Source: Anaerolineales bacterium (GTDB lineage Bacteria; Chloroflexota; Anaerolineae; Anaerolineales; Villigracilaceae). Taken from it: a stretch of DNA of 64,000 nt. Below the pieces are notes generated by a model. It saw nothing but the letters and a program-made list of their open reading frames with translations. It did not search any database and was not told the origin of the DNA. Of the stretch, positions 27,601 through 58,193 are shown one piece after another (position 1 is the stretch's first letter; every line of letters starts with the position of its first letter). The position numbers and the translations under genes were made by a program. The DNA lies in the NCBI GenBank assembly GCA_016934715.1, contig JAFGSI010000053.1, positions 1 through 64,000 on the forward strand. The letters are read 5' to 3'.

Positions 27601-28494
27601 ATGCATCCACATCCGAACCGGAAAACTTCCCTGCTGGTGACCGGAATCCTGGCGCTCCTGGCGATCGCCGTTCTGGCTGCCAGCCTGGATAGCCTGGTGC
27701 TCGCTCCGGCGACCCCCTTTTCCCCCGCTGGGGAGCGAAATGAGACGACCCTGGTCCCGCTTCGACCGCCGAGCGGACTTTTCTTCTGGGTTGTGGCGCT
27801 CATCGGAATCACGATCCTGACCGTTGGGATCCTCGTGGCGATGATCTTCGCCACGCCGCAGCAGCGCCGGCGCATGGCCAGGGCGCTGCTGTTGATGACC
27901 TTCTTCCTGATCCTGGCAGCCCTGCTGATCTCGCAGGATTCGGAGGCCGAGCAGGCGGCTGGCGAAGCTCCCGTTCAACCGCAGGCCGCCGCGACGGTCA
28001 TCGATCCAGGAAGCACCGGGACCGAGGAGGCACCGCTTGCGTTCTTCGAGCCACCGCAGGTTTCGCCGTGGATCTCGTTCGGGGTGTCTTTTGGCGCGCT
28101 GGTCCTGCTCGCCGGACCGCTGGCCTGGCTGCTGATCCGGGCCTCGAAGGCGCGCCGCGCTCCAGGCCCGCTGGAGGAGCTGCGCGAGATCGCCCAGACG
28201 GCCCTCGACGACCTGCAGGCTGGCGTTGAATGGGGGGATGCCGTGGTGGCCTGCTATGCCAGCATGACCGAACTGCTCCAGGAGAAGCGCGGCCTCAGTC
28301 GCCGGGCCTACATGACCCCGGCCGAATTTGCCGCCGGGCTGACCCGGGCCCGCATCCCGCAGCCGGCCGTTGAGCACCTGACACGGCTCTTTGAACGCGT
28401 CCGTTATGGAGCCGGACGTTCCAGCCCGGCCGATGGCGATGCAGCCGCAGCCTGTCTCCGGGAGATCGTGACAGCCTGCCTGGAGGAAGCGTGA
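27601..28494 (+). CDS. DUF4129-domain membrane protein
   Basis: The 297-residue protein has transmembrane helices near residues 11-33, 59-84, 93-112 and 156-182. A cytoplasmic C-terminal domain (about 195-297) has the DUF4129 pattern: ALDDLQAGVEWGDAVVACYASMTELL, then TPAEFAAGLTRA and LTRLFERVRYG. DUF4129 proteins are regular partners of MoxR ATPases and DUF58 proteins in clusters linked to transglutaminase-type or cell-surface functions. It is the first gene of the five-gene operon, and its TGA overlaps the next GTG start. Confidence 0.85.
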   Translation: MHPHPNRKTSLLVTGILALLAIAVLAASLDSLVLAPATPFSPAGERNETTLVPLRPPSGLFFWVVALIGITILTVGILVAMIFATPQQRRRMARALLLMTFFLILAALLISQDSEAEQAAGEAPVQPQAAATVIDPGSTGTEEAPLAFFEPPQVSPWISFGVSFGALVLLAGPLAWLLIRASKARRAPGPLEELREIAQTALDDLQAGVEWGDAVVACYASMTELLQEKRGLSRRAYMTPAEFAAGLTRARIPQPAVEHLTRLFERVRYGAGRSSPADGDAAAACLREIVTACLEEA

Positions 28495-50069: not shown

Positions 50070-50098
50070 TTGACTTTACGTGCAGGTCGAATTACAAT
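50070..50098 (+). promoter_or_regulatory. Promoter of the riboswitch-controlled eno transcript
   Basis: TTGACT (50070-50075) and TACAAT (50093-50098) are 17 bp apart. The expected start is at about 50105, exactly at the 5' base of the riboswitch P1 helix. Confidence 0.9.
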
Positions 50099-50105
50099 CC
50101 CTGTC

Positions 50106-51504
<1,399 letters not shown>

Positions 51505-51570: not shown

Positions 51571-52287
51571 ATGCCGAGTTTCACAGCCTACAATATTCTG
51601 GAGGTCTGCCGTCAACCCGGCTGTCCGGTTTGCCGCCTGGAGCAGCGTTACGTGGAGCGCTACCTGGATAACCAGTTCTATGAGAACGTCAACAACCCGG
51701 ATTGGCGCAATCTGCTACGCCTCAGTCTGGGATTCTGCCGGGAGCATGCCTGGCTGGCTGTGGATGAACGCCTGGGGGATGCCCTTGGCTTTGCGATCAT
51801 CTATCATGATGCCATCGGAGCGACCCTGGAATGCCTGGACAAGGGCTTTCCGCCCCCGACCCGGCGATGGGCAGGTAGGCTCAAACGCATCCCCGAACAG
51901 GTGCGGGCTATGGTTTACAGGGCCATCTACGCCCTCACGCCCCGGAAGCGCTGCCCGGCTTGCCAGAAACGGGACGAGATGACATCCATTATTGTGTCGT
52001 CGCTGGTCGAAAGCCTTGAACAGCAGGAAATGGCGGAAGCGCTCCAGGCTTCAGACGGATTATGTTTGCCCCATCTGAGGCTGGCTCTGCAGGCAGTCAG
52101 GGACATCCCCTCTTGTGAGATGCTGATCGCCATCCATCGGAGAAAACTGGAAACCTTGCAGGCGGAATTGGCCGAGCTGATCCGCAAGCACGATTACCGG
52201 TTTTCGAAGGATGGTTTCGGGAAAGAGGGAGATTCCTGGCTGCGGGCAGTGGCCATGATGGCAGGAAATCCAAAGTCCAGGCAGTAA
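51571..52287 (+). CDS. DUF6062-like cysteine/histidine-rich protein
   Basis: The 238-residue protein has four evenly spaced metal-binding-type motifs: GCPVCRLEQ (about residue 17), GFCREHAWL (about 53), KRCPACQKRD (about 130) and LCLPHLRLAL (about 165). This suggests an internally duplicated Cys/His-coordinated zinc or iron-sulfur scaffold. The pattern matches DUF6062 proteins as I remember them; function is unknown. It lies 66 bases after eno with no promoter or terminator between, so it is probably in the fluoride-induced transcript. Confidence 0.75.
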   Translation: MPSFTAYNILEVCRQPGCPVCRLEQRYVERYLDNQFYENVNNPDWRNLLRLSLGFCREHAWLAVDERLGDALGFAIIYHDAIGATLECLDKGFPPPTRRWAGRLKRIPEQVRAMVYRAIYALTPRKRCPACQKRDEMTSIIVSSLVESLEQQEMAEALQASDGLCLPHLRLALQAVRDIPSCEMLIAIHRRKLETLQAELAELIRKHDYRFSKDGFGKEGDSWLRAVAMMAGNPKSRQ

Positions 52288-52386: not shown

Positions 52387-52429
52387 AAAGAGCACCCTCG
52401 CCGGACGAGAGGCAGAAGTGCTCTTTTTT
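52387..52429 (+). terminator. Terminator of the eno-DUF6062 transcript
   Basis: AAAGAGCAC (52387-52395) and GTGCTCTTT (52418-52426) pair, extended inside by CTCG/CGAG-type pairing, and T6 closes at 52424-52429. It lies at the convergence point with the DUF190-CBS gene, whose stop is at 52428. Confidence 0.8.
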
Positions 52430-53687
52430 ATCCGAGGGAGATCGCCCGGAGCAGGATATGGCGATCCACCAACCCCAATGGATGATTCTTCTCGTCTACC
52501 ACCACCAGCCACTTGCGTTTGGGAGACATCATCATCTTGACAGCATCTACCAGGGGAGTTTCCCGCCTGGCCGTCAGCACACCGGGGGACATCAATGCGC
52601 CTGCCGTTACCTTGCTGGCAGGCGTCTTGGCTCTGCCGCGCAGGGCGGTCAGCACGCCGTGCCGCTCGGAGGGTTGGATGCGCGCCACAACATCTGAATC
52701 GCTGATCAGGCCCACCGCGTTTCCCTTCTCATCCACCACGATGACACGATGAGAGCCGCTGTCCAGCAAGGTGTCCACGATGATGCCCAGGTCATCCTCC
52801 TGCCGGACCACTGGAATGCTGGGGGACATCACGTCCTGCACACTGGTCGCCGCGCCCAGTGGAGCGGTCATCTTACGGGCCTCCTTTTCGGCCACCAACC
52901 GCAGGACGTCCACCCGAGAAAGCATACCGACCAGCCTGTTGTTGTCATCGACCACCGGCAGCCGCTTGATGCCTGCCTTTGCCATGCGGGAGGCGGCCAC
53001 CCCCAGCGAATCCTTCGCCCTCACGGTGATTGCCGGTTTGGACATTACTTCGGCCACAGTCAGGGGAGAGCTGCGCAGCCGCTCGATCTCGTCTTTCAGG
53101 AAGGCGGCATCCAACCGCTCGGCGACCGAAAGGCGCTGTTGTAAGCCGGCGCGTTCCAGCAGATCCTCGTCGGTAAGCATCCCTACCACCGCGCCATCCT
53201 GATCTACAACCGGCAAGGCTTTCAAAAGGGTATCGAGCATTTTCTGCCAGGCATCTACCACGGGCATCGTCGGGAGGAGCGCGACCACATCGCGGGTCAT
53301 CACCTCGTCCATGAACCGGTCGGCAGGCAGCGGGTTCAGGTAGCGGTGCGTATACTTGATCACGTGGGTGTCTTCCACCATGACCAGGCCCTCGGTCACC
53401 ATCGGCGCGACCAGGTCGATCACATGGGCGATTTTCTCGGGCGCGTCCACCACCTGGATGCAAAGCGGCAGGTCTTCCGAAAGCCGCAGGATCGAGGCGG
53501 TGTGAATAAGCGAGTGAGCGCCGAAACCAGCCACGCCGCGCAATACCGTTGCCCCGGCGATCTTCTCCGCTTTGAGCATTTCCAGAATGGCGGCGTAGAG
53601 CGGCCGGCCGCGCCATTTGTCGCTTTCGCCGATAAAGATCGTCAGGAGCTGTGCATCTTCACTGAGTCTTGGGGTCATTTTCGCCAT
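52428..53687 (-). CDS. DUF190 domain fused to four CBS domains
   Basis: The 419-residue protein has an N-terminal DUF190 domain (about residues 8-112; LTIFIGESDKWRGRPLYAAILEML, then RGVAGFGAHSLIH), a PII-like fold commonly encoded next to crcB. Four CBS motifs follow (about 128-180, 215-270, 285-335 and 370-419), that is two Bateman pairs that usually sense adenine nucleotides. It follows crcB by three bases on the same strand and so shares the fluoride riboswitch. A regulator of the exporter or of a stress response is plausible but unproven. Confidence 0.88.
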   Translation of the reverse strand: MAKMTPRLSEDAQLLTIFIGESDKWRGRPLYAAILEMLKAEKIAGATVLRGVAGFGAHSLIHTASILRLSEDLPLCIQVVDAPEKIAHVIDLVAPMVTEGLVMVEDTHVIKYTHRYLNPLPADRFMDEVMTRDVVALLPTMPVVDAWQKMLDTLLKALPVVDQDGAVVGMLTDEDLLERAGLQQRLSVAERLDAAFLKDEIERLRSSPLTVAEVMSKPAITVRAKDSLGVAASRMAKAGIKRLPVVDDNNRLVGMLSRVDVLRLVAEKEARKMTAPLGAATSVQDVMSPSIPVVRQEDDLGIIVDTLLDSGSHRVIVVDEKGNAVGLISDSDVVARIQPSERHGVLTALRGRAKTPASKVTAGALMSPGVLTARRETPLVDAVKMMMSPKRKWLVVVDEKNHPLGLVDRHILLRAISLG

Positions 53688-53690
53688 CCT

Positions 53691-54074
53691 TTAGACAGCC
53701 TTGCCTAGCAGGATACCCGCCAGAACAGCTGCTGCCCCGAGAATGCTGCTTCCCAATAAATTGATCAGGCCCAACCCAACCTGACCTTTCAGGATCAGGT
53801 TTACACTCTCGTAAGTATACGTGGAAAATGTAGTGTACGCGCCGAGAAAGCCGATCGTCACAAGCAGCCGCCAGCGCGGATCCACCAGAAAACGATCGGT
53901 GACCAGCGTAATGAAAAAACCCAGCATCAGGCTGCCCGTGACATTGATGATCAGTGTGCCGAATGGGAAGGTCGTTCCGAAGCGCTCCGCTGCCCAGCCG
54001 CCCAACCAGTAACGTGCATTCGCTCCGAGGATGGCTCCCAGCGAGATGATCAGGAATTTATCCATTCTCTCCAT
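53691..54074 (-). CDS. crcB: Fluoride exporter CrcB/Fluc
   Basis: The 127-residue four-helix membrane protein has the Fluc signatures: GANARYWLGG, PFGTLIINVTGSLMLGF (pore Asn) and GFLGAYTTFSTYTYE (phenylalanine box and central Na+ site region). Fluc channels work as antiparallel dual-topology dimers that let fluoride leave the cytoplasm. Only one crcB is present, so a homodimer is expected. The ATG at 54074 has AAAGG upstream; an in-frame ATG nine bases later is possible. It is the first gene behind the minus-strand fluoride riboswitch. Confidence 0.95.
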   Translation of the reverse strand: MERMDKFLIISLGAILGANARYWLGGWAAERFGTTFPFGTLIINVTGSLMLGFFITLVTDRFLVDPRWRLLVTIGFLGAYTTFSTYTYESVNLILKGQVGLGLINLLGSSILGAAAVLAGILLGKAV

Positions 54075-54123: not shown

Positions 54124-54158
54124 AATAAAATACCCCTACTGAGGGAATCCAGTAGAGG
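54124..54158 (-). terminator. Riboswitch expression-platform terminator before crcB
   Basis: On the minus strand CCTCTACTG (54158-54150) pairs with CAGTAGGGG (54141-54133) over nine pairs with one G-U, loop of eight, followed by a T-rich tail TATTTTATT. Its 5' strand overlaps the aptamer's pseudoknot strand, so bound fluoride should block termination. Confidence 0.9.
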
Positions 54159-54196
54159 CCATCAGTCCGCAGACGGTTTTGGCGAGCCTCATCGCC
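54152..54196 (-). promoter_or_regulatory. Fluoride riboswitch aptamer (crcB motif) upstream of crcB
   Basis: Read on the minus strand: P1 GGCG/CGCC encloses ATGAGGCT (54196-54181). AAAACCG and a short CCG/CGG helix follow, then CTGATGGCCTCTACT. Loop GAGGCT pairs with GGCCTC (one G-U) as the pseudoknot. The match to the Thermotoga petrophila aptamer (GCGATGAGGC, CTGATGGCCTCTACTG) is nearly exact. The gene it controls is the fluoride exporter. Confidence 0.96.
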
Positions 54197-54204
54197 GTGC
54201 GAGT

Positions 54205-54213
54205 ATTGTATCA
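54205..54213 (-). promoter_or_regulatory. Extended -10 promoter of the crcB transcript
   Basis: TGATACAAT on the minus strand (54213-54205) is an extended -10 element. The -35 region (54228-54234) is not consensus, as is common for extended -10 promoters. The start is expected at about 54198, just before P1. Confidence 0.75.
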
Positions 54214-58151: not shown

Positions 58152-58193
58152 AAAAAGGTCGGGGCCGCCCGCAGAGGCGGCCCCGACCTTTTT
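58152..58193. terminator. Strong bidirectional terminator
   Basis: A perfect 18-bp stem (58152-58169 with 58176-58193) with a six-base loop starts in A5 and ends in T5. It terminates both the plus-strand small gene and the minus-strand gyrA. Confidence 0.95.

Follow-up and report, generated by a model that had tools for sequence, protein, structure and literature searches.

A predicted transcriptional fluoride riboswitch upstream of crcB and a DUF190-CBS gene in an Anaerolineales genome

We propose that the minus-strand element preceding crcB in this Anaerolineales genome is a transcriptional ON fluoride riboswitch of the crcB-motif class, a reading to which sequence comparison leads us to assign a probability of roughly 94%. 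In the window, by which we mean the whole 64,000-nt stretch of DNA analyzed, the aptamer matches the full model of Rfam family RF01734 (1 to 64 of 64) at 54205-54146 on the minus strand, with 42.1 bits against the Rfam cut-off of 34 and an E value of 2.7e-8. A genome-wide search of the 4.09 Mb assembly gave the same match an E value of 4.1e-10, and with such values a chance origin can be discounted. An earlier note had described an almost canonical crcB-motif aptamer and had proposed a covariance-model search as a check; that search bears the description out.

Aptamer, promoter, and terminator

Alignment of the aptamer places stem P1 at 54196-54193/54184-54181 and stem P2 at 54174-54172/54167-54165. 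The pseudoknot GAGGC/GCCUC (54190-54186/54159-54155) has all five of its pairs formed in the window sequence and is topped by a U.G pair (54185/54160), while a 30-switch alignment locates the linchpin A-U pair at A54162-U54154. We take this pair to be A40-U48 in Bacillus cereus numbering, by our own mapping of the positions onto that aptamer sequence. The same A-U pair is found in 30 of 30 aligned switches, the crcB-side one included, and its role is described in the available part of PMC8752731.

That alignment holds 30 of 36 switches, six having been dropped for inserts (L002, L004, L009, L011, L015, and L048). Of all cells in the 13 pairs that make up P1, P2, and the pseudoknot, 94.1% pair, compared with 85.8% in shuffled alignments and at most 55.7% when the structure is slid; for the pseudoknot itself the figure is 100%, and three of its pairs are compensated. 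Changes on both sides occur in 8 of the 13 pairs (5.3 when shuffled), and the covariation score reaches 0.373, compared with 0.196 for shuffled alignments and a maximum of 0.135 for slid structures. Of the five measures, one fails to favor the structure, as further pair types number 13 versus 15.4 in the shuffled control. Also, a fourth P2 pair is weak, being unpaired in 19 of 29 filled cells. The top pair of the pseudoknot is U-A in 12 switches, U-G in 10, including the crcB-side switch, and C-G in 8; many natural switches therefore lack the U.G wobble that the consulted part of PMC11077080 calls critical for switching.

An extended -10 element, TGATACAAT, was identified by motif match at 54213-54205 on the minus strand. 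The Rfam match starts on the last base of this box with nine model positions that do not pair, and P1 begins 8 nt past the box, at 54196, in keeping with the earlier description of an extended -10 promoter followed at once by the aptamer. TGNTACAAT occurs twice in the window against 0.32 expected by shuffling, and no -35 box was found upstream by a simple consensus scan, which lists no promoter there. In 17 of the 36 switches, TGNTANAAT lies within 45 nt upstream of the aptamer stem (shuffling gives 0.15 on average and never more than 2), and since this placement recurs in relatives, that of the crcB-side promoter is no accident. If initiation takes place about 7 nt past the -10 box, transcription would start near 54198, 2 nt before P1.

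The aptamer runs into an intrinsic terminator at 54159-54124, which consists of a stem-loop (54159-54132) and a U-rich tail, ATTTTATT, that ends at 54124. The hairpin GCCUCUACUG...CAGUAGGGGU folds at -16.4 kcal/mol (z = -3.62), a value matched by 1 of 200 shuffles. The first five bases of GCCUCUACUG make up the pseudoknot's 3' strand, all of which the hairpin takes up, so that the terminator does reuse this segment as had been claimed, and the expression platform is exclusive with the pseudoknot, an arrangement that is common, not universal, in the RF01734 class. When the pseudoknot strands were forced to be unpaired, the 10-bp terminator stem was replaced by two shorter elements, a 6-bp hairpin away from the U tract and a helix of 4 bp that spans this tract. 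Free folds, which cannot show pseudoknots, paired the 5' end of the 78-nt leader against its 3' end and kept the terminator (-28.8 kcal/mol); without its last bases, the leader folded into P1, a P2-like helix, and the terminator (-28.5 kcal/mol; z = -2.51; 2 of 200 shuffles as good).

Sorting by script divided the 36 switches into 20 terminator-like, 10 Shine-Dalgarno-like, and 6 others. It mis-parsed L039, which is terminator-like by eye; inspection also revealed AGGAGT just upstream of the start codon in L004, L005, and L015. The terminator-type set thus comprises 19 of the 30 aligned rows, 18 by script and L039 by eye. A terminator arm can pair with the 3' strand of the pseudoknot in all 19, a count that is partly so by construction because the class was chosen largely by a like test. 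The crcB-side arm reads GGGGU, not GAGGC, and is the only one of the 19 with two wobble pairs, so termination may leak. A separate observation is that a C-G top pair (alignment columns 14/43) is found in none of the 19 terminator-type switches and in 8 of the 11 others (P = 2.8e-5), a difference confounded by relatedness.

The aptamer, the overlap between pseudoknot and terminator, and the target genes can be read in the sequence itself; fluoride as the ligand, the start site, read-through, and cotranscription of the DUF190-CBS gene are what we infer. The RNA would start about 2 nt before P1. Without fluoride, the downstream arm CAGUAGGGGU would sequester GCCUCUACUG, the terminator would form, and transcription would stop near 54124. 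With Mg2+ and fluoride, the GAGGC/GCCUC pseudoknot and the A-U linchpin would be locked, the terminator could not invade, and polymerase would read through into crcB and the DUF190-CBS gene. Such anti-termination logic is published, as described in the accessible parts of PMC2864571, PMC8752731, PMC11077080, and PMC13273304. The last of these, in the part consulted, reports that 323 of 1901 fluoride switches were functional in an assay with E. coli polymerase, and so a working crcB-side switch in such a test system is not assured.

With the transcriptional type of RF01734 known from B. cereus and Thermotoga petrophila, the element shares P1, P2, the pseudoknot, the linchpin A-U pair, crcB as the target, and a terminator that overlaps the pseudoknot. 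At the three pseudoknot positions compared, 1 (U.G), 2 (C-G), and 5 (A-U), the element agrees with the T. petrophila W1 variant as described in the available part of PMC11077080. In contrast to that type, the element has a terminator arm with two wobble pairs, a leader before P1 that is predicted to be very short, and a DUF190 gene with four CBS domains downstream.

Could the element instead be a relic or a misfit, that is, a plain terminator with a chance resemblance to the aptamer or a degenerate switch that no longer responds to fluoride? The two wobbles that weaken the terminator arm would suit this idea, as would L034, L036, and L037, which are among the closest crcB relatives in the best 80 of 455 (71-79% identical) and have no switch in the locus DNA scanned. 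However, the genome-wide E value, the intact linchpin and tested pairings, and a target gene that is the correct one make it very improbable. The finding is right and the earlier reading of this DNA is supported: by its sequence, the element is a textbook fluoride riboswitch, and a well-known class gains one clear example. As a natural switch, it has a pseudoknot that fits the published working rule and a terminator arm that pairs more weakly than the 18 others compared.

Genes downstream of the switch

The next gene, as had been stated and as in many bacteria that have such a switch, is that of the predicted fluoride exporter. crcB (53691-54074, minus strand) encodes a predicted Fluc fluoride channel of 127 amino acids that matches PF02537 with 93.2 bits (cut-off, 32.9) and aligns to the solved Fluc structures 5a40 (E = 1.7e-10) and 5a43. 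Its start is more likely Met4, at 54065, which is nearly invariant among relatives and would give 124 amino acids. Covariation, linchpin, terminator overlap, and target gene concur, as the earlier note had held for sequence, architecture, and target. The assembly contains no other CRCB match; a CLC-family transporter is encoded elsewhere in it, on C48.

Starting 3 nt past the crcB stop codon, a 419-amino-acid protein with a DUF190 domain (124.8 bits; Pfam cut-off, 23.4) and four CBS domains is encoded at 52428-53687 on the minus strand. We take DUF190 (COG1993) to be PII-like. This is the only DUF190 match in the assembly; sequence searches found PH1503 (2dcl) and TM0021 (1o51) as solved relatives, and the predicted structure of the DUF190-CBS protein has a mean pLDDT of 83.7. 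In 201 genomes sampled from the order, 31 of the 36 DUF190 hits come right after crcB in the same orientation; one of these 31, in G179, is partial. One of the five exceptions is a partial hit in G012, a genome without a crcB match, and the other four are weak (E = 1.3e-5 to 2.8e-4) and fall in frames of 1045 to 1318 amino acids. Moreover, a crcB match is present in all but one of the 34 genomes that contain a DUF190 match (33 of 34), compared with 66 of 201 genomes overall.

The 3-nt spacing and the like gene order in relatives suggest that the DUF190-CBS gene is under the control of the crcB-side switch. A switch that controls crcB only, with the DUF190-CBS gene served by a promoter of its own, is very unlikely. 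What speaks for it is little, namely, a minus-strand promoter-like site at 52948-52921 that lies inside the DUF190-CBS gene and is too far in to serve it. The simple consensus scan listed no minus-strand promoter-like site before the gene, and both the spacing and the order seen in most DUF190 hits argue against it.

Our literature searches found nothing that joins DUF190 to a fluoride riboswitch or COG1993 to fluoride. A search for DUF190 with CrcB or fluoride returned, as far as the retrieved parts go, a review of GABA production and, for fluoride, work on MAST kinases (DUF1908 in one abstract), and one for DUF190 as a PII-like protein led to DUF34 instead.

The enolase-side switch and DUF6062

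The earlier note had called the crcB-side element the second fluoride switch, and there is indeed another. It spans 50070-50187 on the plus strand before an enolase gene, with a TTGACT-17-TACAAT promoter, an aptamer at 50098-50170, and a terminator hairpin with a T tract. The two were the switches found by a covariance search of the whole window, and they are the only RF01734 matches in the assembly at E values up to 0.001. The enolase-side aptamer scores 29.0 bits, below the Rfam cut-off of 34. It is nevertheless credible because it has its own promoter, a P1 that on inspection reads GAGCG/CGCUC, and a terminator arm of 9 bp with eight T residues. Other signals in the window were not counted as switches: a plus-strand match at 27835-27912 to the switch model built here (12 bits; E = 0.056) and three weaker lines of the same window-wide search. 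An Rfam match to MIR1846 at 58193-58152 (26.8 bits against a cut-off of 77.5) was also set aside; it looks like a strong inverted repeat, and this long, GC-rich repeat (58152-58193), lying between A and T runs, is probably a bidirectional terminator.

The enolase gene (50224-51504, plus strand) has its start codon 53 nt past the aptamer. Enolase genes in fluoride-switch operons are described in the available part of a review (PMC11139923). As in those operons, the window enolase gene is preceded by a switch, here 4 kb from crcB and on the other strand; unlike in them, as described there, enolase and crcB would form two convergent transcripts. At L048, enolase, crcB, and DUF190-CBS genes all follow a single switch, in one apparent operon.

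Behind the enolase gene, and presumably on the same transcript, lies a gene with a Pfam match to DUF6062 (51571-52287, plus strand). A survey of 301 genomes from the phylum gave 99 DUF6062 genes, which were set against switch matches that include sub-threshold ones. At least 25 of these genes, from 19 genomes, follow a listed fluoride switch in the same orientation at a distance of up to 3 kb, and at least 15 do so within 400 nt. Three are placed in the wrong orientation or order relative to a listed switch, each being also among the 25. Of the 99 genes, 51 come from genomes for which a switch is among the matches listed. An alignment of 20 sequences (the window protein and those of 19 of 30 fetched loci) revealed invariant C18, C21, C56, H59, C128, C131, C165, and H168, and these two CxxC...CxxH sets suggest metal sites. 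The predicted structure is all-helical (mean pLDDT, 91.3). It gave only partial helical matches, with Z scores up to 5.2, and no solved structure at a Foldseek E value below 0.3, an absence that is uninformative; by sequence, no solved structure matched at E values up to 1. Our literature search found no paper naming DUF6062.

Distribution and origin

In the sample of 201 genomes from the order, 46 have an RF01734 match at E values up to 0.001, and in 33 a match exceeds the cut-off; for 29 of the 59 matches, a crcB gene in the same orientation follows within 6 kb. We also compared the crcB loci of the best 80 of 455 relatives in public genomes with a model of the crcB-side switch, admitting E values up to 0.1 (weakest counted, 0.0028). 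Of these 80 loci, 26 have a switch within 300 nt upstream of crcB and 9 have one on that strand at a greater upstream distance; in 45, some of them short, none was found in the locus DNA scanned. A literature search for fluoride riboswitches in Chloroflexi led only to an oral Megasphaera.

Several neighboring arrangements can be described. L042 and L043 have two divergent switches each, one for a pair of MutS-like genes and one for crcB, and such back-to-back switches are located at L042 4733-4932, L043 4797-4960, and L072 1654-1906. Proteins of about 480 amino acids with a pyrophosphatase domain (cut-off, 23.5 bits) are encoded directly under fluoride switches at L013 1611-3053 (32.9 bits) and L028 1581-3035 (29.2 bits). 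A HEAT-repeat protein (70 bits) is the first gene after a switch at L020 971-1474, in a genome of the window's genus without a crcB match, and the first gene after the switch at L018 1032-1475 has a HEAT-repeat score just under the cut-off.

MutS domain V proteins of about 500 amino acids occur under fluoride switches at L035 (1883-4956), L038, L039, L042, L043, L019, L021, L023, and L024; mutS is already listed among crcB-motif genes in the part of PMC2864571 consulted. Our literature search found no paper that mentions MutS together with the fluoride riboswitch by that name. L035, L038, and L039 have them as a tandem pair followed by crcB and DUF190-CBS, which raises the idea that the window switch was inherited from an operon of this kind and came to lie directly before crcB through loss of the MutS-like genes. 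Such an origin, which we would put somewhat below even odds, is compatible with the fluoride riboswitch explanation. In a comparison with 23 switches, the aptamer upstream of crcB in the window proved most similar to that of L039 (0.87) and also similar to others that precede MutS-like genes (0.85 for L021 and L020). When the genome of the window was searched with the second MutS-like protein of L035, only 26-31% identity was found, over the ATPase part, in frames of 823 and 1308 amino acids. On the other hand, the L022 switch, which immediately precedes crcB, and the L035 switch are equally close (0.83 each), some MutS-side switches are far (e.g., L043, 0.68), and the aptamer is short.

Finally, the two switches might together define a small fluoride regulon in which the DUF190-CBS protein is a dedicated partner of CrcB (e.g., an adenylate-sensing subunit for gating or energy reporting) and DUF6062 is a new fluoride-response protein with a Cys/His metal site, a proposal that we regard as rather unlikely in this full form. 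The analysis points to two families to which Pfam assigns no function, DUF6062 and DUF190 (joined here to CBS domains), as candidate fluoride-response genes. We posit that these poorly known companion genes matter more than an ordinary switch and could repay work.
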